Part shown: positions 59-63,080 of the stretch, piece by piece
Layout of the letters: every line of letters starts with the position of its first letter
How positions within the stretch are numbered: position 1 is the first letter of the stretch
Assembly (NCBI GenBank): GCA_922989275.2
Contig: OV277863.1
Span: forward strand, 25,386,001-25,450,000
Reading direction: 5' to 3'
DNA: 64,000 nt
From: Gari tellinella
Taxonomy: Eukaryota; Mollusca; Bivalvia; Cardiida; Psammobiidae
Position numbers and translations under genes: made by a program
The notes under the pieces: generated by a model
Databases searched by the model: none
What the model was told of the DNA's origin: nothing
What the model saw: only the letters and a program-made list of their open reading frames with translations

Positions 59-311
59 TTAACCCTTTCCCTTATAGAAGCGCCTTTTAGCGAATATGAT
101 TTATTCATCCGCTGAAGAAAATAGTTCCAGTTTATACCCTCATGAACAATTACCATTACAAATATTGTATATAGCCTGACAGATTTTAGCTTAAAGCAGG
201 CTGAAAGTAAAGCAGAATGCGCCTTAGGGCGCATTCTGCTTTATTTTCAACCTGCTTTAAGTAGTCACATATCTTCAATACTAGAAACAATGCTATCAGG
301 TAAAGGGTTAA
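59..311. mobile_element. Family G MITE, complete
   Basis: Flanked by TTAA on both sides with inverted ends CCCTTTCCCTTATAG and GGTAAAGGG. The central palindrome (191-260) has arms TTAAAGCAGGCTGAAAGTAA and its complement, meeting at GCGCCTTAGGGCGC. This is the second palindrome class. TTAA duplications and a CCC start suggest a piggyBac-like mobiliser. Confidence 0.85.
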
Positions 312-458
312 TGCAGGACAAAAGTAACAAAAATAAAGGTCCTGAAAGTAATAAAGAAAAAAATCTGCATAACGTCTGTCTTTCATTGAACCGCGTCCGT
401 TTTGTAAGTTTGTTTTATAAGTGGCCTCTTAGCACATTCGACGAGTAAAATTCGAAAA

Positions 459-625
459 AGTTTGGATCCTGATCAGACGCTGCATAATGCGGCGTCTGAT
501 CAGGAGCCAAGCTGTTTGACACTCGTATCGACATTTCTTCAGTCAAAACAGCCATAAACCTGACTTAAACAATATTACAGACGACGCTACCAATGCAAAC
601 AATATTTTGGCCGTAAAAGGGTTAA
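459..625. mobile_element. Family D MITE, left end decayed
   Basis: The palindrome (459-519) carries GATCAGACGCTGC and GCGGCGTCTGATC. The right flank carries TGACACTCGT, TTTCTTCAGTCAAAA and GCAGACGA-type motifs and ends AAAAGGGTTAA. Confidence 0.75.
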
Positions 626-1053
626 AGCAGACGATGAAACTTGAAAGAGAAAGAGGTGGTGAATGAGCTATACTGTATCAAGCATCCAAAAGATAATAAT
701 TTGCATTGAAGAGATTAGCTTGGTGAAAGTAAAAGCTTATCATAAGTCAACATGCCCTAAACGCTTTTCAATATTCTGAACAGGCAAAATCTATAAATCA
801 TAATTTAGTGGATTGAAGTCAAATTATCCTGTGATTTTCTCTCCCAACACTTCGATATCCACTTCAGAGATAAACAATGTCTTGTTTAAATAAATCATAA
901 CATTGATGTGTTCAAATACATATGACATTTGCAATAAAACAGTTACACGGGATTGAATAAGTTCACGTCCAAACATCAAAAGAAACACTAGAGTGTCAAA
1001 ATGCCAAACCTATCACCTCATTTCCTGTTTATAGTATTAAAGATAGGTGACCA
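626..1053. other. AT-rich stretch, nothing recognised
   Basis: No coding frame, terminus motif or inverted repeat was found between the family D end and the next palindrome. Confidence 0.5.
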
Positions 1054-1125
1054 TTTAAACCAGGTTGAAGGTAAAGCAGAATGCACGTTAAGGCTCACTC
1101 TGGTTTACTTTCAGCCTGCTTTAAG
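1054..1125. repeat. Family G palindrome remnant
   Basis: Arms TTAAACCAGGTTGAAGGTAA and CTTTCAGCCTGCTTTAA with a degraded centre; element ends not found. Confidence 0.65.
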
Positions 1126-1495
1126 CTACAATCTATAAGGGTATAGAGAAAATATTTCTTATAGTACATATTCATGAACGAATAAATTAAAGGCCTATAA
1201 AGGCGTATCTATGAAGTAATGGATTAATAAATATTCCTGCTTTATCTTTATATTGTTTTAAGCAACCACATTCCATAAAGGTGGTTTGCATTTTATCCCA
1301 TATCGGTTGGCATCCAAGTTTGAAATATAGCATCTATAGGTACATGTATGTGTCGTAAAAGATTGTGCACGCCGATACCTCTGCATTCAGCATCAAGCTC
1401 ATTCAGGACTTGTCTGATGTAGGTCCAGTTCATTTCTTAAATATACCGTTTGAAAATGGTAAAAGTCAGTGTTGTTGGTCTTGGCAGTGAAAGGG
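1126..1495. other. Non-coding; stray family D-like terminus at its right edge
   Basis: GGCAGTGAAAGGG followed by TTAA at 1483-1499 matches a family D right end, but no palindrome accompanies it. Confidence 0.45.
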
Positions 1496-1776
1496 TTAAC
1501 TAAAATATTCAGATATTTGAATAGTTTCTGCACCTGTTATTTTAGCCCTCTGTAGAGATAACTGATTACAAATGCAAACAGTGTAGAACCTAATCAGAGG
1601 GCTCCTGTATGAGCCCTCTGATCAGGGTCTGCACTGTTTGGTAGTTTCATTGGTTTTTGTTGTCATACCAAAAATGTAACAGTAGACTGGTTCAAAATAC
1701 TTGTACCAGAAGAGTCCATAAGGATTATAACTATAGGTCTATACCCACAAGAGAAATTTAGGGCTGAAAGGGTTAA
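1496..1776. mobile_element. Family F MITE
   Basis: The palindrome (1574-1640) reads GCAAACAGTGTAGAACC, then AATCAGAGGGCTCC, mirrored by GAGCCCTCTGATCAGGGT. The left flank shows TAGCCCTCTGTAGAGATAAC and the right end GGGCTGAAAGGGTTAA. Confidence 0.8.
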
Positions 1777-2511
1777 CCGACATAATCTAATCTAAACTGG
1801 CCTGGTCAGTATATGGCGATGGACATGCGGGGTACGGTCACAGGGGGAGGTTCGTGCGTGTTACTCACTATATTAGCTAATGGCTAAAAGCTGGACATAC
1901 GTCAAGTGCGAAGAAACACAAGTTTCTCGTTAGAAAGTGACACTAAAATCCCAGGGAGATAGACTTAGTACAATACTTCGCCCATGTCAGTCATAATCCC
2001 CTTGTTCCGGGTTTTGACGCTTAGTATCGATGAAAATGGGGTTGTTTGGGCAAACTATCCATATTGCTACTATCTTGCCGTCAGTGTCAAAATAAGTGCT
2101 TTTTAACCCTTTGCCCCATAAAAGCACGTTGTATGCTTTTGTCAAACCCTCAAAGAAATGTCTTTTCATGTGTCTTCAAGGTCCTGGTAGAGGGTGTTAT
2201 GAAGCTGTTGCTCTATAGTCTTGCAATGGCGGCGTAAATCAGACTGAATGTAGCTTTACTTCCAGTCTACTTCTAGTAATCACCTGTCTTGCACACGAAA
2301 AAAAGCTAATGGGTATTATATAGATTCAAGAATTTATGTGTATTAAATACAGCTTAAAGAAGTTATTGTTTCATATCTAACGATGCAATAAAACCACACG
2401 CAATTCAATAGAAATAGGAAAACAATGGTTTCTTGAAAATGTTAATGATTTATTTGAGTCCGTGTGTAAAAAAATTATAAACCTGATCACACGCCCAGTC
2501 TCCGCTGGAAC
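1777..2511. other. Non-coding; isolated family G left terminus
   Basis: TTAACCCTTTGCCCCATA at 2103 matches the left end of family G, but the palindrome and right end are missing. Open frames at 1987-2237 are short and have no family resemblance. Confidence 0.45.
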
Positions 2512-3064
2512 TACAGTACTCCCTCTCTACAACAACACCAAAAGGGAGACAAATATTGTGTATGTTGTTCAGAGGGAGTCCTTTTAGGCAATGAAGATTA
2601 ATACCTTAAAACACATTTGCAAACAGTTTGAACCCAGATCAGACGCCGCGTCACGCGGCGTCTGATCTGGTTTTAAAATGTTTGTCACTCGTCTTTATGT
2701 TTCTTCTGTCAAAATCCAATACGTAATTTTGAGAAGCAAAAACAGCAAACGGCAAGTTTTAAGCATACTATATTGCGACAGAGAAAGCGTTAAACATAAA
2801 TGTATTGTGTGGGGAACAGCGGCAAACATTGTTGTAGGGGGAAATCGTTCTCGCTGGATCGTCGTAGGGAGGGAATTGTTCTCGGAGCGCCGTTGTAGGG
2901 GGTTGTTTTTAGAGGGCCGTTGTAGGGAAGGAATCGTTCTCAGAGGGCCGTTATAGGGAGATACTCGTTGTTGGCGGGCCGTTGTACGGAGGGAAAGGTT
3001 CTCGGAGGGCCGTTGTAGGGATGGGATCCTTGTCGGAGGGCCGTTGTAGGGAGGGAGCACTGTA
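2512..3064. mobile_element. Family B MITE with expanded internal minisatellite
   Basis: TA-flanked ends TACAGTACTCCCTCTCTAC and GGGAGGGAGCACTGTA. The palindrome (2619-2685) reads GCAAACAGTTTGAACC with GATCAGACGCCGCGTC at its centre. The right part carries about seven or eight GGGCCGTTGTAGGGA units instead of the usual two or so. Confidence 0.85.
2835..3062. repeat. Minisatellite, about 31 bp x 7-8
   Basis: Units of the type GGAGGGCCGTTGTAGGGAGG followed by an AATCGTTCTC-type segment, matching the family B terminal motif. Confidence 0.85.
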
Positions 3065-3494
3065 CACAAATGGTGTTGGGGAGGATTGAAACATTGATCT
3101 CTGTATCTATGAAAAATTAAAATTAGAATTATCTACATGTATAAAAATCCCTTTTTCTGATGTTGCTAGCGTAAACGATTTCCTACATATCCTGTTAAAG
3201 ATACATTGAGAACGTTTCATGTGTTTTAACAGAAACCTCCTAAATGAGCTTTGTGTTTTACTTTGAGTCTGCTTTACAGAACAGAACATAACAAATTTTT
3301 TATTTATCACCCAATCATTGCAAGAGCTACATTCTGAATTATAGGAGCATAAGTCTATCATGCATTTTCATAAATTTATTCCCCTTCTATTACTAACGAA
3401 AACCTTTGGCATAGTCACATGAAACCTGCCACATAATATTCAAGTAACGGTGGCCGGGCACTCTTAGTGACTACAGTTAGGTCAAAAAAGGATA
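3065..3494. other. Non-coding, nothing recognised
   Basis: An 84-codon reverse frame (3107-3361) has no codon bias or motif to support it. Confidence 0.45.
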
Positions 3495-4222
3495 ATTATA
3501 CTTGCACACAATTTATATCCAAGAGTATAAATTCTTTAAGGAGCTCGATTTATGTTGAAATATGATCATTGGTTTAGGCGATATCTGCCCTTGATGCTAT
3601 AAAATGTTTGATTTCAGTATTGTTTACTTTCTATATATATAGTATCTAAAAGTTAAAATGAATATTGATAAAACTTAGTAAAACTATATATGACTAAGTT
3701 ATCGAGTCCGATTATGCTTAAAATCATACCAATTTGTCAGGAGTTATATCCCCTTGGTGTGTTAAAAATGTGTGCACACTCTAGCAACTAAAGTTAGTTG
3801 TTGTTTTTTACTTGCACACAATGTGTACACGTAATTATAAATTCTCTAAGGAGTTCGATAATGATAGAAATCAGATCTTTGTGTTAAGTGTTATCTGCCT
3901 TTGACAAACTCAGATATGTTAGACAATGCTTTATTTTAGTATTGTTCAAGCTCCAGTGTTAAGAATATTAAATAATATTGATACCACATCGTAAATCCAT
4001 ATTTGACCGTACGTTCTCAGATGAATTCGATTATGGTTGATATTGGGCGAACTAATAAGAGTTTTTCTGCCTTTGGTGTATTGAAAATGTCATATTTAAC
4101 AATGTTTACACTTTTAATTGATTTCATTAATTTTTGAATTTATATTGATTTTATTTGCATACAATGTATATGCGTATATAAATATCCTTAGATATGATAC
4201 TGAATTTGATGCTGACCATTGT
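3495..4222. repeat. Diverged tandem repeat, about 155-170 bp units
   Basis: Repeated elements: ACTTGCACACAAT, TAAATTCTTTAAGGAG, TTCGATTATG, TTATCTGCCCTTGGTG and a following AAAATGT-type segment, seen about four to five times. A similar stretch occurs at 28290-28560. Confidence 0.6.
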
Positions 4223-4362
4223 CCCAATCCTGAGACAAAGGGATGACGCATCTGATAAAGCTTATGCGGGACTATAAACCTTAGCAGCAACAACAACAAC
4301 TGAATTTGCGAGTGGGCGTAACATGCCTCGTCCGCGGTACCAATGTAACTCATAACCTCAGA

Positions 4363-4521
4363 CACCAGGCTCCAAGATAATAAAGCTTTTGAGTTGAGTC
4401 TGAATTCGTTCTCAAGCATTTGATTGGTCAGAATTGAGCCTAGGCTCAAATCTAACCAATCAAATTGCTTGAGAAAAAACTCAGACTCAACTCAAACGCT
4501 TTAAAACCTTGGAACCAGGCT
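4363..4521. mobile_element. Family J foldback
   Basis: Inverted arms ACCAGGCTCCAAG, AAAGCTTTTGAGTTGAGTCT and CAAGCATTTGATTGGTCAGA fold back over a centre GAGCCTAGGCTC. Confidence 0.8.
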
Positions 4522-4841
4522 AACATTTCTATGTACGTTGTATGAGCTTTGGGGCATTAGAATTTAAAGTAGATTAAACTGTCGTTTTGAATTGCTATCA
4601 TAGACACTTAAACAAAGTGAAGAAGCTATCCATTTAAAGAATGCTGGCCATGATTTGATGTTTTTTCTTTTAAAATTCAAGAGTTTATTGATATTATTTC
4701 ATTGATATCATAGTCTAGTACTCTAACGTTTGATCACAAGTCCAGACTAAGTACAACAACTGATTACAAAATACTACTGGGGTATTCACTTCACTTTATA
4801 ACTCTTTGCACGTAATTAGCGCTAAAACCATGATTATCTTT
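4522..4841. other. AT-rich, nothing recognised
   Basis: No coding frame or inverted repeat was seen. Confidence 0.4.
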
Positions 4842-5011: not shown

Positions 5012-5261
5012 TTAACTCGTTCAACCCTGAAACGTTTAATGGACAATTCCAATTTCAAAATATGTCTAGTCCATGTTTGACTAATTTGGGTTGATTTTAA
5101 CAATATATTTCAAAATGACAAACAGTGTAAACCCTGATCAGAGGGCTCCTTAAGGAGCCTTCTGATCAGGGTCTACACTGTTTGCATGGGACAAGAGTAC
5201 TCCTCACAGGTACACTGTTTGTAAATGCGAGTATACCCATCGTTAGGGTTGAATGTGTTAA
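5012..5261. mobile_element. Family E MITE
   Basis: TTAA-flanked, with ends CTCGTTCAACCCTGAAACG and GTTAGGGTTGAATGTG. Palindrome (5119-5184): CAAACAGTGTAAACCCTGAT, AGGGCTCCTTAAGGAGCC, then its complement. Internal TGGACAATTCCAATTT and GTACACTGTTTG segments are typical of the family. Confidence 0.85.
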
Positions 5262-7321: not shown

Positions 7322-7683
7322 GCAGCACTCCCTCTCTACAACGACATCCAATGGGAGACACAGACTGTGTGCGTTGTTCGGAGATAGTCGTTATAGGGAG
7401 GGGAAATTAAGACTTGGCTTACATTTGCAAACAGATTGAATCCAGATCAGACGCCGCGTAACGCGGCGTCTGATCTGGATTCAAGCTGTTTGGCAATCGT
7501 TATTATAGTTATTCTATCAAAATATCCACTTATATAATTATAACTTTGAGAAAAACAGCAGACGACAATTTTAAGCAGACGAAAACTGTTAGACATAAAT
7601 GTCTTGTTAAGGGAAGTGCGACAAGGGTCGTTGTAAGGAGGGAGTCGTTGTTTGGAGGGCCGTTGTAGAGAGCGAACACTGTA
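7322..7683. mobile_element. Family B MITE
   Basis: Ends CAGCACTCCCTCTCTAC and AGAGCGAACACTGTA. Palindrome (7427-7492): GCAAACAGATTGAATCC, AGATCAGACGCCGCG and complements. Confidence 0.85.
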
Positions 7684-8059: not shown

Positions 8060-8301
8060 TGGCCCGTTTCATAAAACTTCGTACGACAATTTGTGTCGTA
8101 AGTCAGATTATTAAAGTCTTAATTATTATTTATTTCTCCATCTTATCCTGTCTTGTGACATCTGTTTGGAATCGTCCTGAAAAGACGATTCCAAAGAGAT
8201 GTCACAAGACAAGATTAGATAGAGAAATCAGAAATTAAATGTATTTTAAAGTTTTGACTTACGACCGTTTTTGTCGTACGAAGATTTATGAAACGGACCC
8301 C
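8060..8301. mobile_element. Family I foldback
   Basis: Ends GGCCCGTTTCATAAAACTTC and its complement GAAACGGACCC. Outer arms contain TACGACAATTTGTGTCGTA; the centre is a perfect hairpin built on CTTGTGACATCT and GGAATCGTC. Confidence 0.85.
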
Positions 8302-11868: not shown

Positions 11869-12115
11869 TTAACTCATTCTCCCCTGAAACTTTAGTGGAC
11901 AATTCCAATTTCCAATTAAGTATAGTCCATTTTTAATATTTAAGGTTGACTTGAAGAATATATTGCAAAATGACAAACAGTGCAGGCCCTGATCAGAGGG
12001 CTCCTGCAGGAGCCCTCTGATCAGGGTATACACTGTTTGCATAGGACAAGAGTACTATTCACAAGTACACTGTGTTTAATGACGAGTATACTCGTTGCTA
12101 GGGTTAAATGTGTTA
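11869..12115. mobile_element. Family E MITE
   Basis: Starts TTAACTCATTCTCCCCTG and ends AGGGTTAAATGTGTTA. Palindrome (11974-12039) with centre GAGGGCTCCTGCAGGAGCCC. Confidence 0.85.
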
Positions 12116-13843: not shown

Positions 13844-14083
13844 TTAACCCTTTCAACACTACAGTCCTCTGTAGAGATTACTGATTACATATGCAAACAG
13901 TGTAGACCCTGATTAGAGGGCTCCTATATAGGAACCCTTTAATCAGAGTCTACACTGTTTGGCAGGTTCAAAGGTGTTTGTTGTCATATCAAAAATGCAA
14001 CAGTAGACTTGTTTAAAAAACCTGTACTAGAAGAGTCCGAAAGGATAATAAATACCCAAAAGATATTCAGGGTTGAAAGGGGT
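13844..14083. mobile_element. Family F MITE
   Basis: Left end TTAACCCTTTCAACACTACA, palindrome at 13893-13961 (GAGGGCTCCTATATAGGA centre), right end GGGTTGAAAGGGG with a decayed TTAA. Confidence 0.8.
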
Positions 14084-17005: not shown

Positions 17006-17249
17006 TACAGTGGAGAATCTGTTATTCTTTCCCAATAAACGCGTTTACGCTAAAACTATTATTTCTATTGCAAACAGTTTGGAGCCAGATCAGAAGCCGG
17101 GTAACCCGGCGTCTGATCTGGCTCCAAACTGTTTGCCACCAAGATAAAGATGAACTTTCAGAATTGTCAAAAAGTTGTACTTTTCTACGTTTTATCGCTT
17201 TGCGTACGTTTGCGTTTAAACGGGAAAGAATAACATATTCTCCACTGTA
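17006..17249. mobile_element. Family A MITE, complete
   Basis: TACAGTGGAGAATCTGTTAT to AATAACATATTCTCCACTGTA-type ends with a TA duplication. Palindrome (17072-17137): GCAAACAGTTTGGAGCC, then GGGTAACCCGGCGTC. Confidence 0.9.
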
Positions 17250-17724: not shown

Positions 17725-17968
17725 TTAACACATTGTGCCCTAGTGACGCATATATGCGTCCTTTACCAAAAGAGTACACTTGTCTAATTCAAACAGTAAA
17801 GTCCCTGATTAGAGGGCTCCTGCAGGAGCCCTCTAATCAGTGACTTCACTATTTGTCATTTTGCAATATATTATAAAAAAAAAATACAACCCTAAATAGT
17901 CTAAAATGAAGTGGCCTTTATTGTAAACTGGAATTGTCCATTTGAAGTTTCAAGGGATACTGAGTTAA
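17725..17968. mobile_element. Family E MITE
   Basis: Starts TTAACACATTGTGCCCTAG and contains GTGACGCATATATGCGTC. Palindrome centre GAGGGCTCCTGCAGGAGCCC; ends GGGATACTGAGTTAA. A half copy of the same family lies just to its left (17615-17710). Confidence 0.85.
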
Positions 17969-18667: not shown

Positions 18668-18896
18668 TTAACCCATTTGTGTCAACGATCCCATATATGG
18701 GACATAGGCAAACAGTGAAGACTCTGATCAGGCGCCGCATTATGCGGCGTCTGATCAGAATCTTCACTGTTTGCCGATAGGAATTTCAATATAAAACAAA
18801 CTGAAAAAGAAAATTTTGACCAGGCATCCCTTTGATAAAAAATGGGCTAACCCAATATATAAACATGGAAGAATCCACTGGGTATAAATGGGTTAA
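18668..18896. mobile_element. Family C MITE, complete
   Basis: TTAA-flanked ends CCCATTTGTGTCAACGATCC and CTGGGTATAAATGGG. Palindrome (18708-18774): GCAAACAGTGAAGACTCTGA and CAGAATCTTCACTGTTTGC around GCCGCATTATGCGGC. Confidence 0.9.
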
Positions 18897-20538: not shown

Positions 20539-20751
20539 TTAACCCATTTGCGCCCTGTGGTTTCTACTATGCTTGTAGATTGGATTAGTCCATTTTTTAT
20601 GTAATGGTGCCTTCATTTTCGTTTTTTATATTGAAATTTCTATCAGCAAACAGTGTAGACTCTGATCAGACGCCGCATTATGCGGCGTCTGATCAGAGTC
20701 TACACTGTTTGCCTATGACTCATATGGGATCGTGTGCACCAATGGGTTTAA
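20539..20751. mobile_element. Family C MITE, complete
   Basis: TTAACCCATTTGCGCCCTG at the left and ACCAATGGGTTTAA at the right. Palindrome (20646-20712) is perfect around CGCCGCATTATGCGGCG. Confidence 0.9.
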
Positions 20752-20761: not shown

Positions 20762-21008
20762 CACAGTGGAGAAGACGTTATTCTTTTCCGTTTAAACGCA
20801 AACGAAACGCAAACGCATTGCAATAAAACGTAGAAACTGACAACTTGTTGAAAATTCTGACTATTAATTTTTATCTGAGTGTCAAACAGTTTCGAGCTTG
20901 ATAAGACACCGGGTTTCCCGGCGTTTGATCTGGCTCCAAACAGTTTGCATTGGAAATAGTTTTAGCGTAAACGCGTTTACCATGAAAGAATAACGTCTTC
21001 TCCACTTT
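20762..21008. mobile_element. Family A MITE
   Basis: CACAGTGGAGAAGACGTTAT at the left, GTCTTCTCCACTTTAT at the right (final bases mutated). The palindrome has several mismatches. Confidence 0.85.
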
Positions 21009-24017: not shown

Positions 24018-24596
24018 ATGTCTCCTAACTTCGTTTCCCCATTTTTTAGAGCTGATTACAAATGGTCAAATCGATGGAGATTAACGTTTTAAATCTTATA
24101 TTTGGATTATCTCCTCAGTAAGATATTGTATGCTTTCTTAGTTCCATTGTTGAGAAGTGAAATTAATTACTCGATCAAGGGATCTTTGTTTACTGCACAA
24201 AGCTTTATTTTAATCCACCGTGATCTCGGCCTGTGTATTAGCTACCCCTCTAAATGTACTAGATTGATCTCCGGGGGAGAATTTGGAGTCTTGGTTTATG
24301 AAATCGTAATATTCTAGTGAAATAAATTTTGAAAAACAATATATAGTGAAATTATGAACTTTTTTATGAGCGATTTTACGAAGATTTTGTGACCCAGCGA
24401 GTTTAATTATTTCATCTGACACATCTACAAGATTTGTGGAAAGGAAATAAAGATATGGAGGTAAGTTGCTTAGTTTTCTCCACATATACTTATGAAAACA
24501 ATACAATTCAGTATTCACTATTCTTTCCTGCCTGGTGTATTTGAAGAAGGGATAAATATTGAAGTCATTACCCAATGAATACGCCTTTTTACGCAT
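24018..24596. other. AT-rich, no supported gene
   Basis: A 128-codon reverse frame (24210-24596) lacks any motif, and its composition follows the AT-rich surroundings. Confidence 0.4.
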
Positions 24597-24800
24597 TTAG
24601 TTTATTCCTCCACTGAACAATATAGTTCCCCTTTATACAGTCATGGATATGTACCATAAGACATATTTTCTATATCCTAGTAAATGGTAGTTTAAAGCAG
24701 ACTGAAAGTAAAGCAGAATACGCCTTAAGGCGCATTCTACTTTACTTTCAACCTGCTTTAAATATTCACCTCCTGTCTTCAAAACTAGAAACAAATGATG
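24597..24800. mobile_element. Family G MITE, ends decayed
   Basis: TTTATTCCTCCACTGAACAA, the palindrome (24691-24762; centre CGCCTTAAGGCG) and CTTCAAAACTAGAAACAAAT are recognisable. Confidence 0.75.
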
Positions 24801-24863
24801 GGGCCAGCCATTGTACCGATATATTCGCTGTCTGATCAGATTCCATGCTATTTGACACGCACA

Positions 24864-25365: not shown

Positions 25366-25803
25366 ACCATCAGTGAGTACCCATGTTCAAATATGTACCT
25401 CTACTAGACGTGAGCTACATGTATATAGGAGTAGTTTTGGGTTTATCGGCTGTAAAGTCTATTTTTGTGTCATTTTTAAAAATGCAATGTCTATTTTCTA
25501 GTAGAAAATACGAGTTTCGATTGGCATACAGATCCATATTACTAAACGCAATTGAAAGAACCGATAAAAACACGGACTGCGTTTGTTCTTGTATTGCATA
25601 AGCCATTAGTTCGATGTCTAGAAAACTAATGACTTGTTGACAATTTGATCTTTACAAGAAATACACATGCACAAAAACTTAATTGCGTTTCTTTTTATAG
25701 AAGATATGATTATTTTTTGAAATATCAGTAATTTGTAACATTGTTGCATTTCCACAAGGGCATATCACATATAATTATATAACGTGTTATACTTTCATAT
25801 TGG
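25366..25803. other. Non-coding, nothing recognised
   Basis: Overlapping short frames on both strands here have no splice or motif support. Confidence 0.4.
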
Positions 25804-26021
25804 TTACCTATTTGTGCCCCCACGAGCCATAGGCAAACAGTGTAGACTATGACCAGACGCCGCATTATGAGGCGTCTGATCAGAGTCTACACTGTTTGCT
25901 GCTAGGAATTTCAATATAAAACAAAATGAAAATGAAGATTTGACCCAGATATTCCTTAAATGAAAATGGACTAATCCAATATATAAAACATGGAATAATC
26001 CACTGGGCGCAAATGGGTTAA
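25804..26021. mobile_element. Family C MITE
   Basis: Left TTACCTATTTGTGCCCCC, right TGGGCGCAAATGGGTTAA; palindrome at 25832-25899. Confidence 0.88.
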
Positions 26022-27666: not shown

Positions 27667-27876
27667 TTAACTCTCCTACCGCCAAAATATCGTTTGCATT
27701 GGTAGTGTCGTCTGCAATATTTTAAAGTCAGCTTTAGGGCTGTTTTGACAGAAAAATGTCGATACAAGTGTCAAACAGTTTGGATCCTGATCAGACGTCG
27801 CCTGACACGGCGACTGATAAAGATCCAACATGTTTGCAAAGTCGCATTTTGGCGCCGTTGGCAGTGGCAGAGTTAA
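27667..27876. mobile_element. Family D MITE
   Basis: Left TTAACTCTCCTACCGCCA, then GTCGTCTGC and GATACAAGTGTCAAACAG, palindrome (27774-27839), right GGCAGTGGCAGAGTTAA. Confidence 0.85.
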
Positions 27877-28620: not shown

Positions 28621-28819
28621 TTAACCCCTAGCCTGCCACTCACGACTATAGCTCCATATGCAAACAGCTTGGATCCGGATGAGACGCCGAGTAACTCGGC
28701 GTCTCATCCGGATCCAAGCTGTTTGACACTCGGACAACATTTTCAGCAATTTTCAGCAACTTTGAAGCACTTTGAAGCAGACGAGAAATATAGCAATTCT
28801 TTGGCGGGCTAAGTGTTAA
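28621..28819. mobile_element. Family P MITE, complete
   Basis: TTAACCCCTAGCCTGCCACT and GGCGGGCTAAGTGTTAA. The palindrome (28660-28725) is perfect: arms CAAACAGCTTGGATCCGGAT and complement, centre GCCGAGTAACTCGGC. Here GATCAGA has become GGATGAGA, with the matching change in the other arm. Confidence 0.9.
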
Positions 28820-28882: not shown

Positions 28883-29232
28883 TGTCAGTGTTCCCTCTCT
28901 ACAACGACATCCAATGGTAGACCAAAATTGTGTGCGTTGTTCGGAGAGAGTTGTTACAGGGAGGGATATTGGCTTTATACATTTGCAAACAGTTTGAGTC
29001 CAGATCAGACGCCGCGTAACGCGACGTCTGGTCTGAATTCAAGCTGTTTGTCACTCGTCATTAATTTCTTTTCTGTCAAAATGTCAAAAATGTAACTTTG
29101 AGAAAAGCAGCAGACGACAATTTTAAGCAGACGATATTGCGGCAGTGAAAAACTTGGTTTGAGGAACAGCGGCAAGGGTCGTTGTAAGGAAGGAGTCGTT
29201 GTTGGCAGGGTCGTTGTAGGGAGGGAACACTA
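28883..29232. mobile_element. Family B MITE
   Basis: Left CAGTGTTCCCTCTCTACAAC, palindrome (28984-29050), right AGGGAGGGAACACTATA. Confidence 0.88.
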
Positions 29233-29460: not shown

Positions 29461-29670
29461 TACAGTAAAACCTCTCTATTACGACCACTAAATTATGTTA
29501 ATTATTAGGGAGTTTACGATAGGTGACCGCTTAAAGCAAGGTGACTGTGAAACAGAAAGCTCCTATAGGAGCTTTCTGTTTCACAGTCACCTTGCTTTAA
29601 GCTGTCACCTGTCTATTATACACTCGATTAGCCTTCGTTTTAGTGGTCGTAATAGCGAGGTTTTACTGTA
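29461..29670. mobile_element. Family H MITE, complete reference copy
   Basis: TA-flanked ends CAGTAAAACCTCTCTATTAC and AGCGAGGTTTTACTG. The palindrome (29531-29600) is perfect: arms TTAAAGCAAGGTGACTGTGA and complement, centre AGCTCCTATAGGAGCT. Confidence 0.92.
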
Positions 29671-29722: not shown

Positions 29723-29958
29723 TTAACCCTTTCACTGCCAATGCCGTTAACACTGACATTTGTAAACAGTTTAGATCCCGATCTGACGCCGCGTACGCTG
29801 AGTCTGATCAGGATCCTAACTGTTTGACACTCACGTCAATGTTTCCTAAGTTTAAAGTGCATGAAATTTCAAATCTTAAAAGTAAAAGCAGACGAAAAAT
29901 ATAAACAGACGATAATATGGTTGTGTTAGACGGGTATTTTCGTCACAATGGCAGTTAA
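29723..29958. mobile_element. Family D MITE, complete
   Basis: Ends TTAACCCTTTCACTGCCAAT and CGTCACAATGGCAGTTAA; palindrome (29763-29824); then GTCAATGTTTCCTAAGTTTA and two CAGACGA motifs. Confidence 0.88.
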
Positions 29959-33468: not shown

Positions 33469-33719
33469 TTAACCCTTTCCACCATGAAACATCGAATGAA
33501 CAATTCTAGTGTTCAATTCAGTCTAGTCCATTTTTGACATTATAAAGTTGACTTTCACAGTATATGTCAAAAGAACAAACAATGTAGACCCTGATCAGGT
33601 GGCTCCTTAATGAGCCCTCTGATCAGGGTCTACACTGTGTGCATAGGACAAGTGTACTTATCATGGATACACTGTTTGCAAATGACGCATATATGCGTGA
33701 CTAGGGTTCAAAGAGTTAA
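33469..33719. mobile_element. Family E MITE inside the 5.1 kb element
   Basis: TTAACCCTTTCCACCATGAA, palindrome (33577-33642), ATGACGCATATATGCGTGAC and the end GGTTCAAAGAGTTAA. Confidence 0.85.
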
Positions 33720-34853: not shown

Positions 34854-35103
34854 TACAGTGGAGAAAACGTTATTCTTTCCCAATAAACGTGTTTACGCTT
34901 AAACTATTTTTTCCATTCCAAACAGTTTGGAGCCAGATAAGACGCTGGGTAATCAGGCGTCTGACCAGGCTCCAAACTGTTTGCCACTCTGAAACAAATG
35001 AAAAGTCAGAACTTTCAAAAAGCCGTCCATTCTACATTTTAGTGATTTGTGTTTGCGTTTCGTTTGCATTTTAACGGGAAAGAATAATGTTTTCTCCACT
35101 GTA
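34854..35103. mobile_element. Family A MITE inside the 5.1 kb element
   Basis: TACAGTGGAGAAAACGTTAT to AATAATGTTTTCTCCACTG with TA on both sides; palindrome (34919-34984). Confidence 0.9.
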
Positions 35104-43658: not shown

Positions 43659-43886
43659 TTAACCCACTTGTGCCCACGATCCCATATATGGGACATAGGC
43701 AAACAGTGTATACTCTGATCAGACGCCGCATTATGCGGCGTCTGATCAGAGTCTACACTGTTTGCTGATAAGAATTTCAATATAAAACAAACTGAAAATG
43801 AAATTTTTGACCAGGCATCCCTTTGATAAAAAATGGACTGATCCAATATAAAAACATGGAAGAATCCACTGGGCTCAGATGGGTTA
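43659..43886. mobile_element. Family C MITE next to exon 3
   Basis: Ends TTAACCCACTTGTGCCCACG and CTGGGCTCAGATGGGTTAA; palindrome (43699-43765) with perfect centre GACGCCGCATTATGCGGCGT. Confidence 0.9.
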
Positions 43887-47606: not shown

Positions 47607-47820
47607 TTAACCCTTAGCCCGCCAAATAAATTGTCGTCTGCTATATTTCTCGTCTGCTTCAAGTTTCAAAGCGCTTCAAAATTGCTCAAAATTGCTGAAA
47701 ATGTTGTCCGAGTGTCAAACAGCTTGGATCCGGATGAGACGCCGAGTTACTCGGCGTCTCATTCGGATCCAAGCTGTTTGCATATGGAGCTATAGTCGTG
47801 AATGGCAGGCTAAGGGTTAA
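47607..47820. mobile_element. Family P MITE, complete
   Basis: TTAACCCTTAGCCCGCCAAA and GGCAGGCTAAGGGTTAA. The palindrome (47715-47780) matches the 28621 copy in reverse, with a single arm mismatch. ATTGTCGTCTGC and TCGTCTGCTTC lie to the left. Confidence 0.9.
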
Positions 47821-48081: not shown

Positions 48082-48425
48082 TTCTGTTTTACTTTTATCT
48101 AGCTTGAAGCTGTCATCTGTCTTTTATAAACTGAATTAGCATTCATTTTAGTGGTCTTAACCCTTTACCCCATAGAAGCGACTTTTAGCATATTCAGTTT
48201 ATTGCTCCGCTGAAGAAAATAGTTCCAATTTAATCAGTCATGATTATATAGTATAGGGAAAATTTTCAATATTCTAACACATGGAAGCTTAAAGCAGGCT
48301 GAAAATAAAGCAGAATGCGCCTTAGGGCGCATTCTGCTTTACTTTCAACCTGCTTTAAGTAGTCACCTATTTTCAATACTAGAAATAGGCTATCAGGTAA
48401 AGGGTTAATAGAGAGGTTTTACTGA
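48082..48425. mobile_element. Family H right half split by a family G MITE
   Basis: CTGTTTTACTTTTATCTAGC and GCATTCATTTTAGTGGTC stand left of the insertion; TAGAGAGGTTTTACTG stands right of it. Compare GTGGTCGTAATAG in intact family H. Confidence 0.8.
48157..48408. mobile_element. Family G MITE, complete
   Basis: TTAA duplicated on both sides; ends CCCTTTACCCCATAGAAGCG and CTATCAGGTAAAGGG; palindrome (48299-48360). Confidence 0.92.
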
Positions 48426-50202: not shown

Positions 50203-50530
50203 AGTTTCAAAACGTTTTGAGCCTCATCAGACGCTGTGTAGGTTACTGACCAGGGGCCCGTTTTACTAAACAACTTACGCAAATTATTTGCGTAAGTCAA
50301 AATTTTAAATTTTAATTTATATTTTTATTATCACTTGCTACAAACAGCAAATAGCCAGATCAGAGGACGCGCTTTTAGAGCGCGTCCTCTGATCTGGCTA
50401 TTTGCTGTTTGCAAACGTTTAATGATCGAAAAATAAGAGTAAATCGATTTTGACTTACGCAAACATTTTGCGTAAGTAGTTTAGTAAAACGGGCCCCATA
50501 TCCGCCTGATGAGGCTCAAAACTGGGTATG
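50203..50530. mobile_element. First-class palindrome split by a family I element
   Basis: GTTTTGAGCCTCATCAGACG before the insertion matches, inverted, GCCTGATGAGGCTCAAAAC after it. Confidence 0.75.
50253..50497. mobile_element. Family I-type foldback carrying a first-class palindrome
   Basis: Ends GGGGCCCGTTTTACTAAACA and TAGTAAAACGGGCCCC with sub-terminal ACTTACGCAAATTATTTGCG. The centre (50341-50412) is a perfect palindrome: ACAAACAGCAAATAGCCAGA, TCAGAGGACGCGC and complements. Confidence 0.9.
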
Positions 50531-56992: not shown

Positions 56993-57242
56993 TACTGTAA
57001 AACAGGTATTTTTCGCGTCATGAATATTTCGCGTAATGCGATTTTGTATTAACTCGCGACATCATGCAATATTTCTAGCAGGTGATAGCTTAAAGTAGGT
57101 TGAAAGTAAAGCAGAATGTGCCTTAAGGCACATTCTGCTTTATTTTCAACCTGCTTTAAGAAGTCACCTATTTTCAAAACTATAGACATTCGCGAATTAA
57201 CGCGTAAATTATATTCTCGCGAATAAAACCGGTTTTACAGTA
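56993..57242. mobile_element. Family S MITE carrying a family G-type palindrome
   Basis: TA-flanked ends CTGTAAAACAGGTATTTTTC and AATAAAACCGGTTTTACAG with TTCGCG motifs inside. The palindrome (57089-57160) has arms GCTTAAAGTAGGTTGAAAGT and complement, centre GTGCCTTAAGGCAC. Confidence 0.9.
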
Positions 57243-58076: not shown

Positions 58077-58132
58077 GTATGCATGCTTTCCTTTTCACCT
58101 GAAGTCTGCCAGGCCAAGTATCTCGTCACATA

Positions 58133-58382
58133 TACAGTGGAGAATCTGTTATTCTTTCCCGTTTAAACGCAAACGTACGCAAACGCAAAGCGCTAAAACG
58201 TAGAAAAGAACAACTTTTGGACAATTCTGATAATTCTTGTTTATCTTGGTGGCAAACAGTTTGGAGCCTGATCAGACGCCGGGTTACCCGGCGTCTGATC
58301 TGGCTCCAAACTGTTTGCACTGCAAATAATAGTTTTAGCGTAAACGCGTTTATTGGGAAAGAATAACACATTCTCCACTGTA
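58133..58382. mobile_element. Family A MITE, complete, 57 bp after exon 5
   Basis: TACAGTGGAGAATCTGTTAT to ATAACACATTCTCCACTGTA with TA duplications. Palindrome (58252-58318) has centre GACGCCGGGTTACCCGGCGT. Confidence 0.92.
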
Positions 58383-58397
58383 GTTCATGTATAGTAG

Positions 58398-58761
58398 TAC
58401 AGTGTTCCCTCCCTACAACGACCCTCCAAACAACGACTTCCTCCCTATAACGACCCTTGTCGCTGTTCCCCAAACAAGACAACTATATCTAAAGTTTCCA
58501 AGGCTGCAATATCTTCTGCTTATAAAACTGACGTCTGATGGTTTTCTCAAAATTACACATTGGACATATTGATAGAAAAAAGCATAATGACGAGTGACGA
58601 ACAGCTTGAATCCAGATCAGACGCCGCGTTACGCGGCTACTGATCTGGATTCAAGCTGTTTGCAAATGTAAACCAATTTCCCTCCCTATAACGACTCCCT
58701 TGGAACAACGCACACTTTTTGTGTGTCCCATTGGGTGTCGTTGTAGAGAGGGAGAGCTGTA
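58398..58761. mobile_element. Family B MITE
   Basis: TACAGTGTTCCCTCCCTACA to GAGAGGGAGAGCTGTA; palindrome (58598-58664). It follows the family A copy after 15 bases. Confidence 0.9.
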
Positions 58762-59030
58762 ATTGTAAATGAGTGAAGGGAAACCTATAACGATCACTTT
58801 AATCAAAGCTGTTTGAAACAGCATATAATTAGGGTCCGGATTAGACGCTGAGTAACTCGTCATCGGGTCAGAAAAAACAACTATTCGACGAGTTGCATTT
58901 CTTCAATCGAACTGCAGAAAAATGATGTTTAACCAAATAAAAACAGACATAGAACTTGGACTGGCAGCTTTAAAGACTACTTAAGCAAAATCAAGAGCTA
59001 TAACTCCTGCACGCAGGTGATGGTTTACAT

Positions 59031-59222
59031 AGTCGAACTTCTATATCTCGAAGTCGTTTAACTCGAACTATCCGACAGTTCGACATATGCACTGCATTAT
59101 TTCATGCTCGGTTAAGTCGAACATACCAATATTTCAAAGTTAAAACGTGGCTAAGCCACGTTTTAACTTTGAAATACGGGTATAGTCGATAAAACCGATT
59201 TCGAGATATCGAAGTTTGACAT
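59031..59222. mobile_element. Family Q MITE
   Basis: Central perfect hairpin (59130-59178): TATTTCAAAGTTAAAACGTG, GCTAAGC and complement. Ends are decayed. Confidence 0.75.
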
Positions 59223-59284
59223 ATTATATATAACTGGTGATAGCCTTAGCTTCTCTCATATCTTTACAAAGTTAAAACCAATTT

Positions 59285-59325
59285 TACATTTTCTTCTTCT
59301 TCTTCTTCTTCTATTTCTTCTATTC
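59285..59325. repeat. (CTT)n microsatellite
   Basis: CTTCTTCTTCTTCTTCTTC run. Confidence 0.9.
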
Positions 59326-59499
59326 TCTACGTATGGTGTGGATCTCAACTGTTTGACAATCGATTTAATGCTTCGCAAGTCTTAATTATATAAACGCTTA
59401 ATTTCATATATTTCACAAATGACAGTTTTATAATATAACAGAGGATCTTTAAGCATGATACTGGTGCACCAATTTCTTCCTGATTGTTTCGTTTAATAT

Positions 59500-60154
59500 T
59501 ACAGCGCATCCTCTCTACAACGACTTCCAACGATGGACAACAATTGTGTGCGTTGGTCGGAGGGAGTCGTTAGAGGGAGGGAAATCGGCTAACATTTGCA
59601 AACAGCTTGAATCCAGATCAGACGCCGCGTTACGCGGCGTCTGATCTGGATTCAAGCTGTTTGTCACTCGTCATTAACGTTATTTCTGTCAAAATGTCCA
59701 ATATGTAACTTTGAGAAAAACAGCAGACGACAACTTTCAGCAGATTTGATTTGATTTGTTTTGATTTTACGTCGCTTTCAACAGTATTTCAGTCATATCG
59801 CGACGTCCAGCTAATGACAGGTGGAGGAAGACCCCAGAAGCCCTTTATGCACTGTTTCAGGCACAAATCGGCAACTGGGTAGAACCACCGACCTTCCGCA
59901 AGCCAGCTGGAAGGCTTCCCCACATGAAAAATCCGAACGACCCTACTGAGATTCGAACTCACAGCGGTGAGGAGCTTAGTGATGTAAGTCACAGTGACTA
60001 TACTACTAGGCCACGGAGGCCCCCCAACTTTAAGCAGGCGATATTAAGACAGTAAAAGCGTTAGACATATTGTCTTGTTTAGGGAACTGCGACAAGAGTC
60101 ATTGTAAGGAAGAACTCGTTGTTGGGAGGGACGTTGTAGGGAGGGAGTGCTGTA
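59500..60154. mobile_element. Family B MITE split by a SINE
   Basis: TACAGCGCATCCTCTCTACA to AGGGAGGGAGTGCTGTA. Palindrome (59598-59665) is perfect around GACGCCGCGTTACGCGGCGT. Confidence 0.9.
59744..60024 (-). mobile_element. Second copy of the tRNA-derived SINE, inserted in a family B MITE
   Basis: Nearly identical to the 54172 copy but on the other strand: the AATC-type tail is at the left and the tRNA-like head at the right (GGGATTCGAAC-type B box complement, then CTAGGCCACGGAGGCC). A 13 bp duplication, CAACTTTCAGCAG and CAACTTTAAGCAG, flanks it within the MITE. Confidence 0.9.
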
Positions 60155-60180
60155 TCTGCTTTAGCTCTTGAATACTCGGT

Positions 60181-60285
60181 ATTTGTTTTCGTCTGCATCA
60201 ACTGTCGTCTGCTAGATCTACTAAACTTCTTTTCAAATCCAGGTCAGAGTGTCAAATAGCTTAGATTCTGTTGAGACACCGCGTA
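60181..60285. repeat. Decayed family D/P fragment
   Basis: CTGTCGTCTGCTAG, GAGTGTCAAATAGCTTAG and TTGAGACACCGCG. Confidence 0.5.
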
Positions 60286-60310
60286 AATGATTTATTATTA
60301 TCTATGGAAG

Positions 60311-60672
60311 TACAGCGTTCCCTCCCTACAACGGCCCTCCCAACAACGACTCCCTCCTTACAACGACCCTTGTCGCATTGCCCCAAACAAGACATTTACG
60401 TCCAACCTTTTCATGGCTGCAATACCGTCTGCTTAAATTTGTCGTCTGTTGTTTTTCTCAAAGTTACATATAAGTGGATATTTTGATAGGATATATTTAA
60501 TGACGAGTGACAAACAGCTTGAATTCAGATCAGACGCCGCGTCTGATCTGGATTCAAGCTGTTTGCAAATGTAAGCCAAGTCTTCATTTTTCCTCCCTAT
60601 AACGACTCCCTCCGAACAACACACACAATCTGTGTCTCCCATTGGCTGTCGTTGTAGAGAGGGAGCACTGTA
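60311..60672. mobile_element. Family B MITE with a contracted but still perfect palindrome
   Basis: TACAGCGTTCCCTCCCTACA to GAGGGAGCACTGTA. The palindrome (60511-60565) is only 55 bp; the centre reads ATCAGACGCCGCGTCTGAT. Confidence 0.88.
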
Positions 60673-60727
60673 ATACACAGAACAATTGCTTTCAGCAGTC
60701 TTTAGGCAAAGACGTGTGGAACTCTGT

Positions 60728-61217
60728 TTACCATTGACTCTATAGAAGCGCAGTTTAGTGCATTTGATTTATTCCTCCACAGAAAATAGTTCCATTTAAA
60801 ACAGCCATGAATAAGTATCATAAGAAATAGTTTCTATAATTCTAGTAGATGGAAGCTTAAAGCAGGATGAAAGTGAAGCAGACTGCGCCTTAACTCTTTG
60901 AACCCTAGTCACGCATGTATGCGTCATTTGAAAACAGCGTACAGTACCTATGGAGTACACTTGTCCTATGCAAACAGTGTAGACCTGATCAGAGAGCTCC
61001 TTAATGAGCCCTCCAATCAGGGTCCACACTGTTTGTCATTTTGACATATATTGTAAAAATCAACCTTAAAAAGTCAAAAATGGACTAGACTAAATTGAAA
61101 ACTAGAATTGTCCATATGAGGTTTCAGGGGCGAAAGGGTTAAGGTGCATTCTGCTTTACTTACAACCTGCTTAAAGTGGCCACATATGTTCAAAACTAGA
61201 AACAAGCTAGGGAGTTA
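60728..61217. mobile_element. Family G MITE split at its palindrome centre
   Basis: The left half ends GCAGACTGCGCC before the intruder and the right half resumes GGTGCATTCTGCTTTACTTA. The right end is CTAGGGAGTTAA. Confidence 0.85.
60890..61142. mobile_element. Family E MITE inserted in the family G palindrome
   Basis: TTAA on both sides; ends CTCTTTGAACCCTAGTCACG and GGGGCGAAAGGG. Palindrome (60970-61036) with GAGAGCTCCTTAATGAGCCC centre. Confidence 0.9.
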
Positions 61218-61340
61218 ATCGGTTACGAAGATTAACGGTAGTTTTACTGTAAAATTGATGTTCATCTGCACATGCAGTACGAAATATGCTAAAGATATAA
61301 GTTAGCTCCCTTTCTTCATGACACGAGCTAATATGGTTTT

Positions 61341-62136
61341 TGGCTCACCTGGCACGAAGAGCCAAGGTGAGCTATTAGGATCGCTGGATGTCCGTCGTCC
61401 GTCGTACGTCGTCCGTCCGTCTGTCCACAATTGTTCGTTAACACTCTAGCGGCTACAAATTTCATTTGATCTTCAAGAAACTGAATGACAATATTTGTCT
61501 TGATGAAATCTAAGTCAAGTTCGAATGTGGGTCATGGCCGGTCTAAAACTATGTCACTAGGTCAAATCATCGAAAACCGTGTTAACACTCTAGAGGCAAC
61601 AGCTCTCATTGGATCGTAATGAAACTTAATCAAATTGTTTGCCTTAATTAAATCTAGGTCAAGTTTGAATATCAGTCATATCAGGTTAAAAACTAGGTCA
61701 CTAGGTCAAATCATCGAAAAACCTTGTTAACACTCTAGAGGTTACAAATCTCATTGGATCTTAATGAAACTTGGTCAAAATATTTGCCTCATTGATATCT
61801 AGATCAAGTTTGAATGTGGACCATGTCCGGTCAACAACTAGGTCACCAGGTCAAATCATAGAAAAACTGTGTTAACTCTCATGAAGCTACAAATCTCATT
61901 AGATCTGAATGAAATAGTGTCAGAATATTTGCCTACATCAAATCTAGGTCAAAATCAAATGTTGATTGTGTCTGGTCAAAAACTTGGTCAGTAGGTCAAA
62001 TTATAGAGAAAAAAAATGTTAACACTCTAAAGGTTGATTGTTGGTAATGTTGATCCAGTCGTAATCTAGGTCGCTATAGGTCAAGTTTTACATTGTGTAC
62101 CAGGTGAGCGATTTAGGGCCATAGTGGCCCTTGTTT
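61341..62136 (+). mobile_element. Bivalve-type Helitron-like non-autonomous repeat with internal tandem array
   Basis: It starts TGGCTCACCTGGCACGAAG and contains a CCGTCCG-rich stretch. About five units of roughly 145 bp follow, each opening GTTAACACTCTAGAGGCTAC (near 61437, 61582, 61727, 61873 and 62018). It closes with GGTGAGCGATTTAGGGCCAT and AGTGGCCCTTGTTT, which forms a GGGCCA/TGGCCC hairpin just before the 3' end. The structure matches a very common bivalve repeat. Assignment to Helitrons is inferred from the 3' hairpin and the lack of inverted ends. Confidence 0.8.
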
Positions 62137-62300
62137 AAACATGTCATAATTATTAGTTGTATTAATATTGTTATTATTATTTTCGCTTTCAATGTTTCTA
62201 AAAGCCTAGATACAAGGTGTGTGATTTTTTCTGTCGTCAACAAATCATAGTGGTACATTCGTAAACCCCACCACTGCCACAGCATCGCCTGCTAGACTGC

Positions 62301-62535
62301 TTAACCCTTTCAGCCCCTAAATGTCTCTTGTGGGCATTTATAATCCATTGGGGCTCTTCTAGTACATATATTTTTAACCAGTCTACTATTGGTATGATAA
62401 CAAAGACCAATGAAACTATCAAACAGAGCAGATCCTGATCTGAAGGCTCCTATAGGAGCCCTCTGATCAGGATCTACACTGTTTGCATATGTAATCAGTA
62501 ATCTCTACAGATGGCTGTAGGGTTGAAAGGGTTAA
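62301..62535. mobile_element. Family F MITE, complete
   Basis: TTAACCCTTTCAGCCCCTAA to GGGTTGAAAGGGTTAA, in the reverse orientation to the 13844 copy; palindrome (62420-62485). Confidence 0.9.
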
Positions 62536-62764
62536 TAAAGCTTATCGTCTGTCTTTATTTTTCATATTTGATATAATGCATTTTGACTAAAGGGTTTAAC
62601 ACGTTTGATCATAATCAAACGCCGAACTAAATGGGGTCTGATTTTGGCATAGAAATATAGGAACTATTTCTACCTCAAATATGTCGTCTGCTTTAATCCG
62701 CTCCCTGTCAAACTATCGTCTGTTCTAATATTATTGTCTGCAATATTGTTGTTTCAAAGCTTGC

Positions 62765-63003
62765 TTAACCCTTTACTCCATAGATACGCATTTTACGCCT
62801 TTACTTTATTTATCCACAGAAGAAAATAGTTCAAATGTATACAGTCATGAATAAGTATCATAAGAAATAGTTTCTTTATTCTAGCAGATGGTAGCTTAAA
62901 GTAGGTGCAAAATAAAAAGAGGTGTGCCTTAAAGCCATTCTGCTTCACTTTCAAACAGCTTTAAGTGCTCACTTGTCTCCAAGATGAAAAACAGTCGGAT
63001 TAA
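62765..63003. mobile_element. Family G MITE
   Basis: TTAACCCTTTACTCCATAGA, TCATGAATAAGTATCATAAG, then the palindrome (62894-62964, several mismatches). The right TTAA is at 63000. Confidence 0.75.
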
Positions 63004-63006
63004 GTG

Positions 63007-63080
63007 ACAAACAATTTTTGGTTCAGATCAGACGCCGCGTTAACGCTGCTCCTGAACTGGATCAAAACTGTTTGCAATTT
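63007..63080. repeat. First-class palindrome remnant
   Basis: CAAACAATTTTTGGTTCAGA and TCAGACGCCGCGTTAACG face CTGGATCAAAACTGTTTGC. Confidence 0.65.

Follow-up and report, generated by a model that had tools for sequence, protein, structure and literature searches.

A long palindrome shared by TTAA and TA miniature transposable elements in the bivalve Gari tellinella

The stretch of Gari tellinella DNA considered here (contig OV277863.1, C8:25386001-25450000, 64,000 bases of a 1.6-Gb genome in 80 contigs; hereafter the window) holds many miniature inverted-repeat transposable elements (MITEs), and it raises the question of how elements with different ends and different target-site duplications come to contain the same long palindrome. 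An initial annotation of the window proposed that one central palindromic module had moved, or been exchanged, between MITE families of different superfamilies. The palindrome is indeed present in such families, in the best sampled of which it is the least variable segment, and it probably reached several of them from an element of the TTAA type.

When the window was compared with itself (E 1e-5), 30,719 of its 64,000 bases were covered, and the motifs GCAAACAG and CTGTTTGC were counted 26 and 24 times, respectively. A gapless palindrome scan (score at least 14) returned 41 palindromes as against 0, 0 and 0 in three Markov shuffles, and 36 of the 41 are overlapped by matches to one of two palindrome modules, designated class 1 and class 2, as are 135 of the 168 strong palindromes in 20 regions of 10 kb each, taken at random from the first 64 Mb of contigs 1-16. 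Consensus palindromes of class 1 measure 65-69 bp and those of class 2 72-96 bp, and the hairpins formed by seven palindromes folded as single-stranded DNA are perfect or nearly so (-31 to -51 kcal/mol, z -11 to -19). The two classes may be linked by GCTCCTATAGGAGC, with two exact occurrences, and by weak profile cross-matches at 3 places (15-19 bits). A search of Rfam at the gathering score returned 0 matches in the window.

Genome-wide, the pattern GCAAACAG-N10-GATCAGA has 482,494 exact occurrences (241,329 + 241,165) versus 1 (0 + 1) for its reversed control, and a class-2 31-mer has 58,276 + 58,453 (control 0 + 0); one exact pattern each gave 0 matches in viral and 0 in prokaryote contigs, which has little bearing on animals. 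The class-1 profile (E 0.01) has 54 matches within the window and 160 across the random 200 kb (~0.8 per kb; 122 of the 160 score at least 25 bits), which extrapolates to the order of 10^6 copies in 1.6 Gb, partial ones included. Across 288 kb, i.e., the window, the 20 random regions and eight 3-kb loci picked by module pattern (L001-L008), class-1 matches were obtained at 243 places and class-2 matches at 127, of which 89 lie in the random 200 kb. Since L001-L008 were chosen by module pattern, densities were taken from the random regions alone, 4.7% of which is covered by class-1 and 2.8% by class-2 matches, while these loci were kept in the family alignments.

The claim that one palindrome occupies elements with differing ends and duplications was borne out. 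Class 1 is hosted by TTAA elements with piggyBac-like ends of several CCC... types, by two TA families with ends CAGTGGAGAAT or CAGTGCTCCCTCTC, and by a foldback with GGGGCCC ends; class 2, as had also been claimed, occurs in one TTAA family (U1) and two TA families (U2, U3). Families were sought among 165 near-full-length class-1 modules (score at least 25), after removal of the repeats of one 2.4-kb tandem array. A terminus scan, with thresholds at the 95th (TTAA) and 99th (TA) percentile of mixed-flank nulls, called ends for 32 of the 165 (22 TTAA, 10 TA); chance could account for about 8 of the TTAA calls and for 1-2 of those at TA ends, and the families were therefore based on recurring ends and alignments rather than on single calls. 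With eight family profiles that include the palindrome and a cutoff of 60 bits, 146 of the 165 modules could be assigned, and 5 match none; single-linkage clustering, which fused 224 flanks into one group, did not resolve the families.

The terminal sequences of most families are given in Table 1. Among the class-1 TA families, T1 measures 246 bp, with the palindrome 63 and 118 bp from its ends (52 copies at 85% coverage), and T2 measures 355 bp (97 and 193 bp; 22 copies). The 26-base T1 end has 62,541 + 62,640 exact occurrences genome-wide (control 0 + 0). Terminus pairing gave 43 T1 pairs, of which two (2 and 10 bp) were dropped, and 40 of the remaining 41 have a full or partial module match, as do 23 of 23 T2 pairs; of the 40 T1 pairs in which both ends could be read, 33 have TA at each end, as do 16 of 23 T2 pairs. 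The class-1 TTAA families are T3 (206 bp, palindrome 36 and 105 bp from the ends, 8 copies), T4 (243 bp, 74 and 103 bp, 16 copies), T5 (222 bp, 37 and 120 bp, 7 copies), T6 (227 bp, 46 and 115 bp, 5 copies) and T7 (202 bp, 36 and 101 bp, 5 copies), the last lying within an old and diverse group. The foldback T8 has 2 copies without a clear duplication and is probably family O of the initial annotation, a guess, as is any matching of its letters to families, since it gave no family coordinates. In class 2, U1 is a TTAA family (243 bp, 45 and 127 bp, 46 copies), U2 a symmetric TA family (10 copies, TA seen in the consensus) and U3 a TA element of 1 copy. The palindrome had been described as central, which does not fit most TTAA families, in which its distances to the two ends are 36-46 bp and 101-128 bp. 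In the T4 consensus, as in window 60894-61138, part of the palindrome's outer arm (CAAACAGTGTAC...) is present an additional time in the left flank, suggesting an internal duplication.

At 202-355 bp and with TA or TTAA at the ends, T1-T7, U1 and U2 agree with MITEs in length (below ~500 bp), inverted terminal repeats and target duplications. A TTAA duplication with CC(C/T)T ends, as in piggyBac-type elements, is found in T3-T7, T9 and U1, several T5 and U1 copies having CCCAT in place of CCCTT, and the TA duplication of Tc1/mariner/pogo-type elements is found in T1, T2 and U2. The piggyBac ends that were read share CCCTTT alone with some of the MITE families.

How the palindrome came to lie in TA elements is best seen in T2. 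The initial annotation took the shared part to be the palindrome alone; however, T2, T3 and T7 share the palindrome together with a right tail of ~105 bp. Against a profile of the T3/T7 tail (36 flanks), the T2 right flank scores 45.3 bits over positions 2-109, reaching the TTAA end, compared with 51.4 bits for T7 itself and -1.0 for the best of 84 shuffled flanks; the local score between the T2 and T7 right flanks is 71, with a maximum of 42 in 100 shuffles. On the left side, ATTAA stands ahead of the palindrome in 5 of 20 printed T2 copies, mostly as ATTAAGACTTGG, and in the remaining copies a few bases are lost or changed at this position. This ATTAA looks like the other TTAA of an element that has lost most of its left end. 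Because of the right-flank tail that runs to a TTAA end and of the ATTAA on the left, T2 is best interpreted as a TA element harbouring a decayed TTAA MITE. U3 contains the U1 palindrome and, beside it, ~28 bp of U1 flank on one side and ~20 bp on the other; the alignment has 12 mismatches and one gap over its first 120 columns, and the U1 ends were not found in U3.

A present-day parallel is provided by a transposon with an open transposase frame. Of 86 piggyBac transposase matches in the genome, 19 span the domain without an internal stop, and one composite piggyBac of 4.38 kb has an open frame of 499-500 codons (PF13843, 335 bits). Its copies on contigs C3 and C4 are 98.75% identical over 3,999 aligned bases, with TTAA at both ends and different flanks at both ends, and each contains, 44 bp past the transposase stop, a nested MITE of 201 bp (both TTAA counted), whose class-1 palindrome (24.6 bits) is 37 bp away from the MITE end. 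The composite has thus moved with its nested MITE, and a larger transposon can therefore carry the palindrome along. In a third copy (L039, on C8) the transposase region is 79% identical at the DNA level and the same MITE lies downstream (81%), with no alignment of the stretch between them (225 versus 52 bp). That the palindrome might be the native end of an autonomous piggyBac was considered and rejected, as the nested TTAA MITE lies past the stop and the homology between copies continues beyond it. Taken together, the sequences strongly suggest a TTAA element as the source of the palindrome in T2, in U3 and in the composite piggyBac. The C4 composite copy (L046, C4:43500560-43500760) is itself inserted at the edge of a class-2 palindrome. 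Besides the 19 full-length stop-free piggyBac domains, the genome holds many pogo/Tigger-type matches (PF03184, DDE_1; 150 scored, of 486 candidates), and because so many transposase frames are without stops, DNA transposons may still be active in it.

For the other families, no capture trace of the T2 or composite-piggyBac kind was found in T1, T8 and U2, and the flanks of T1, T4, T5, T6 and T8 showed no significant homology to the T7 tail; the tail-profile scores of most T1 copies are ~0 bits or below, which amounts at most to a weak collinear hint. A score of 23 between the T7 left and T8 right flanks (null maximum 18) was taken as chance.

The proposal that the module moved between elements thus holds for its entry into foreign elements, i.e., T2, U3 and the composite piggyBac, and is not supported for a continuing exchange. 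When the flank family was called with the palindrome masked and the palindrome type was called separately, 115 of the 165 modules yielded a flank call, of which 93 agreed with the palindrome type, 11 disagreed (some of them adjoining or nested elements) and 11 more were ambiguous in palindrome type. Agreement in 93 of 104 unambiguous cases is the reverse of the incongruence between arms and flanks that had been expected to accompany exchange; continuing exchange between families is not supported, and the transfers would rather be rare founding events. Two odd junctions were observed, one joining a T1 left half and half a palindrome to a T7-like tail (L028:2246-2352), the other a T1 left end to a T2 tail (L017:4547-4650); these could be recombination at palindromes or plain deletions between neighbours.

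Independent origins of the palindromes, which the initial annotation had named as an outcome that would overturn its view, are contradicted by fixed motifs common to distinct families. Its other alternative, simple divergence of related copies, is possible for T3-T7, which have in common the same duplication, CCC ends and mostly the same palindrome position. The flanks of families T3 and T7 are homologous (z 7.0) and T3 and T4 are alike over part of the left flank; no other homology was seen for the flanks of T4, T5 and T6. The class-1 TTAA families may accordingly represent one lineage.

Whether the palindrome is more than a passive part of these elements was addressed by its variation between copies. 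In strict copies, i.e., those with flank divergence of at most 15% and with sites near indels removed, pooled divergence was 3.3% in the palindrome versus 7.6% in the flanks (82 copies; T7, with too few strict copies, left out). The palindrome was the less divergent part in 69 of the 82 copies and the more divergent in 10, the rest being tied or too short, and the palindrome/flank ratio was 0.33-0.80, i.e., below 1, in all eight families with enough copies. No palindrome-size window outside the palindrome was less divergent in T1 (49 windows), T2 (160), T4 (43), T5 (50), T6 (54) or U1 (54), U2 being too short for this control, and none of the 30-bp windows outside fell below the palindrome mean in T1, T2 and U1. 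The same was seen where copies were chosen by their flanks alone, with divergences of 1.5% versus 3.8% in T1 (25 of 28 copies lower, 3 higher), 5.6% versus 11.5% in T2 (13 of 14 lower, 1 higher) and 7.4% versus 12.2% in U1 (17 of 17 lower, 0 higher).

Distinct variants present in at least two copies reflect lineages that multiplied, and when pooled these shared variants are also fewer in the palindrome. In TA families they occupy 18 of 228 palindrome sites versus 101 of 379 mid-flank sites (p 4e-9) and 26 of 180 terminal-repeat sites (p 0.04), and in TTAA families 6 of 328 versus 42 of 473 (p 1.5e-5) and 12 of 281 (p 0.09); as sites and copies are not independent, these p-values serve as guides. 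By family, palindrome versus mid flanks, the counts are 4/67 versus 30/115 in T1, 5/65 versus 68/221 in T2, 4/72 versus 35/108 in U1 and, weakly, 1/67 versus 5/90 in T5. The palindrome is therefore the least variable segment in the best-sampled families, both of the TA (T1, T2) and of the TTAA type (U1, T5).

Furthermore, the two arms change together. In a gap-free 65-bp set of 15 hand-picked window palindromes, which are related copies, 11 of 32 pairs had changed on both sides versus 8.6 in shuffles (a value reached in 13 of 500), and the cells changed on both sides numbered 49 versus 17.3 in shuffles and at most 4 with slid partners. The arms thus covary between families. In the left arm, CAAACAG is invariant and most of GATCAGACGCC nearly so.

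We infer from these two observations, i.e., that the palindrome is least variable in the best-sampled families and that its arms changed together, a constraint acting on multiplication. The palindrome would have belonged to an old and very large lineage of TTAA (piggyBac-type) MITEs and would have entered elements with different ends through rare founding events, the best documented being the insertion of a TTAA MITE into a TA element and its decay there (T2), with the composite piggyBac, whose transposase frame is open, as a living parallel. Each new composite would then have amplified as a family of its own, keeping its own version of the palindrome, which may have been retained for helping amplification in cis whatever the transposase, either by forming a hairpin in DNA or by offering a dyad to which a host factor binds. 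To this account as a whole we give about even chances. A bolder form, in which superfamilies acquire the 65-bp hairpin by nesting, selection keeps it as a transposase-independent proliferation module, and multiplication is raised via host replication or repair, is tentative and rather unlikely; if true, about four-fifths of the strong palindromes, and many TTAA and TA elements, would be built around two versions of one such module.

Several observations weigh against capture followed by constraint. The insert is present in 23 of 23 T2 pairs; U3 is a single copy; T1, the commonest TA family, has flanks without significant homology to any TTAA family; and the autonomous ends compared were those of piggyBac elements, with no TA-type ends among them. 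The further pair types in the covariation set show no excess (24 versus 23.3 shuffled). In the small families lower variation is weak or absent: the divergence ratio is 0.80 in T6 and U2, with 2 of 3 T6 copies going the opposite way; T3 (5 copies) has less divergent palindrome-size windows outside the palindrome; and 30-bp windows below the palindrome mean make up 38% of those outside in T3, 17% in T4, 2% in T5, 28% in T6 and 24% in U2. In U2 (9/96 versus 3/43) and T4 (1/66 versus 1/113) the palindrome has no deficit of shared variants, so that the pooled result derives mainly from T1, T2 and U1. Finally, singletons are reduced as well, if less than shared variants (0.0228 in the palindrome versus 0.0387 and 0.0346 elsewhere), and their reduction is not predicted by selection acting on active masters alone.

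The simplest rival is that the palindrome is a functionless passenger, common because the TTAA MITE lineage is common, and swallowed by elements that later amplified. Nesting is indeed repeated, since T1 lies in T7-like elements (L006:2040, L026:375), the composite piggyBac contains a MITE and its C4 copy sits in a class-2 palindrome, and at ~0.8 class-1 matches per kb capture is almost unavoidable; yet a passenger should drift like the rest of its host, and it is mainly on the lower divergence of the palindrome in the TA families T1 and T2, and also on the covariation of its arms, that this unlikely explanation fails. The reduced singletons would suit another process, in which the hairpin serves as a repair template, one arm being rewritten from the other, so that the palindrome stays perfect in the absence of selection, and mirrored double changes in T1, each seen once, do number 11 versus 3.2 expected (highest 8 in 500 shuffles; 52 copies, not the strict set). 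Such correction should leave many doubles, however, and most changes in T1 are one-sided (146, versus 11 mirrored and 7 double but non-mirrored); nor would it keep CAAACAG or most of GATCAGACGCC constant, so that it may add a little and is very unlikely as the full explanation.

Alternatively, the palindrome may be a binding dyad of piggyBac-family transposases near one end of the element, left as a fossil in TA elements. In most TTAA families its position is fixed, at 36-46 bp from one end, the genome holds the 19 stop-free transposase domains noted above, and C-terminal domains of piggyBac-family transposases are described as binding left-end palindromes (PMC11707139; here and for the other papers cited, except where noted, in the portion available). 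Those dyads are 12-19 bp long versus 65 bp here, the piggyBac ends that were read lack a module match of their own (terminal inverted repeat CCCTTTCGGCGCCA in L031, L033 and L034; CCCTTTCCCACAT on C3 and C4), and the low variation in TA families would be unexplained, which makes a transposase site improbable.

MITEs are usually explained by their ends alone, and almost any filler between the terminal repeats will do. Here, an internal hairpin varies less than its flanks, and no more than the terminal repeats, across families with different target sites and thus presumably different transposases. If it is selected, part of MITE success would lie in an internal, transferable, host-facing signal, and the question of why some MITEs reach hundreds of thousands of copies would become testable.

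The repetitive extragenic palindromic (REP) sequences and bacterial interspersed mosaic elements (BIMEs) are bacterial and are not known to lie inside elements with terminal inverted repeats. They resemble the present palindrome in abundance, being very numerous, and are tied to a transposase (PMC2817692). The left-end palindromes of piggyBac and piggyBat, compared with ours by description, lie near one end of TTAA elements and are transposase-bound (PMC11707139). MER6, a mariner MITE with a short interspersed nuclear element (SINE) V domain, parallels the TA families as an amplified mariner MITE with a conserved foreign module; that module comes from a retroposon, and its abstract makes no mention of a palindrome (PMC6887750). 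Closest are the coral MITEs, or CMITEs (Wang et al. 2010, PMC2872659), the likeness to which concerns architecture and listed ends. Like T3-T7, they have TTAA duplications, CCC ends and families with different terminal repeats that share an internal region, of 75 bp, better conserved than the ends; the left end of family VI, CCCTTTCACTGCCA, counts as the same as that of the T7 consensus, CCCTTTCACTgcCA; and one CMITE insertion gave rise to a new element, CMITE-IN, comparable to the nesting seen here. They differ in being ~100 bp long with ~1,600 copies, as against 202-243 bp for T3-T7 and far more copies of the present palindrome, and the available portion of the paper describes CMITE families and CMITE-IN with TTAA and none with TA; its main text does not contain palindrom, hairpin, stem-loop or secondary structure. 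New with respect to CMITEs are therefore the long covarying palindrome, the far higher copy number, and its presence and low variation in TA elements. In the literature covered, which included work on Lucina haemoglobin genes (PMC4732748) and bivalve transposons (PMC10294476), with most subscription journals, Repbase and Dfam beyond the search, no paper on this palindrome was found; papers that contain words of its sequence did not, judging by title, deal with repeats.

Table 1. Palindrome-bearing elements recognized in the window (positions in the window)
Element	Ends	Position	Strand	Palindrome and remarks
T1	CAGTGGAGAAT	17008..17247	+	17070-17136
T1		58135..58380	-	58252-58318
T1		34856..35101	+	34919-34983
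T1		20764..21007	-	older copy (82%)
T2	CAGTGCTCCCTCTC	7323..7681	+	7428-7492; with tail, probable internal TTAA-element remnant
T2		2514..2880	+	2620-2684
T2		28886..29232	+	28986-29050
T2		58400..58759	-	58600-58660
T2		60313..60670	-	60511-60565, shortened
T3	CCCTTAGCC	47611..47816	-	47716-47780
T3		28625..28815	+	28661-28725
T4		5016..5257	-	5119-5184
T4		11873..12112	-	11974-12039
T4		17729..17964	+	17790-17855
T4		33473..33715	-	33579-33638
T4		60894..61138	+	~60971-61035
T5	CCCATTTGTGCCCA	43663..43883	+	43699-43765
T5		18672..18892	+	18707-18775
T5		25797..26017	+	25833-25899
T5		20543..20746	-	20646-20712, perfect 33-bp arms
T6	CCCTTTCAACCCTA	62305..62531	-	62420-62485
T6		1529..1772	+	1575-1640
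T6		13848..14081	+	13894-13961
T7	CCCTTTCACTGCC (family ends)	27671..27872	-	27772-27836
T7-like TTAA element		29727..29931	+	29764-29826
T8 foldback	GGGGCCCGTTTTACTAAAC	50253..50497	.	50341-50411
U1		63..307	-	class 2, 190-261
U1		48161..48404	-	class 2, 48288-48359
U1		24564..24807	-	class 2, 24691-24762; end estimated from family length
U2	CAGTAAAACCTCTCTATTACGACC	29464..29667	+	class 2, 29518-29613
U3	CTGTAAAACAGG	56995..57240	+	U1 palindrome with ~20-28 bp of U1 flank per side, without U1 TTAA ends

Overall, 43 of 234 strong palindromes are without a module match, and some of these are recurrent, e.g., AAACCCTATGGTGTCACTACTCATTAGAATCGTCTC, TATTTCAAAGTTAAAACGTGGCTTAGCCACG and ATCTAATCCTGTCTTGTGACATC; examples lie at window positions 8132-8228, 59123-59183 and 4418-4465 and at L025:4336, L027:1783, L026:1339 and L018:834. 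A ~2,387-bp tandem repeat at L014 2729-8749, whose units have both class-1 and class-2 palindrome matches, forms a MITE-containing, satellite-like array.

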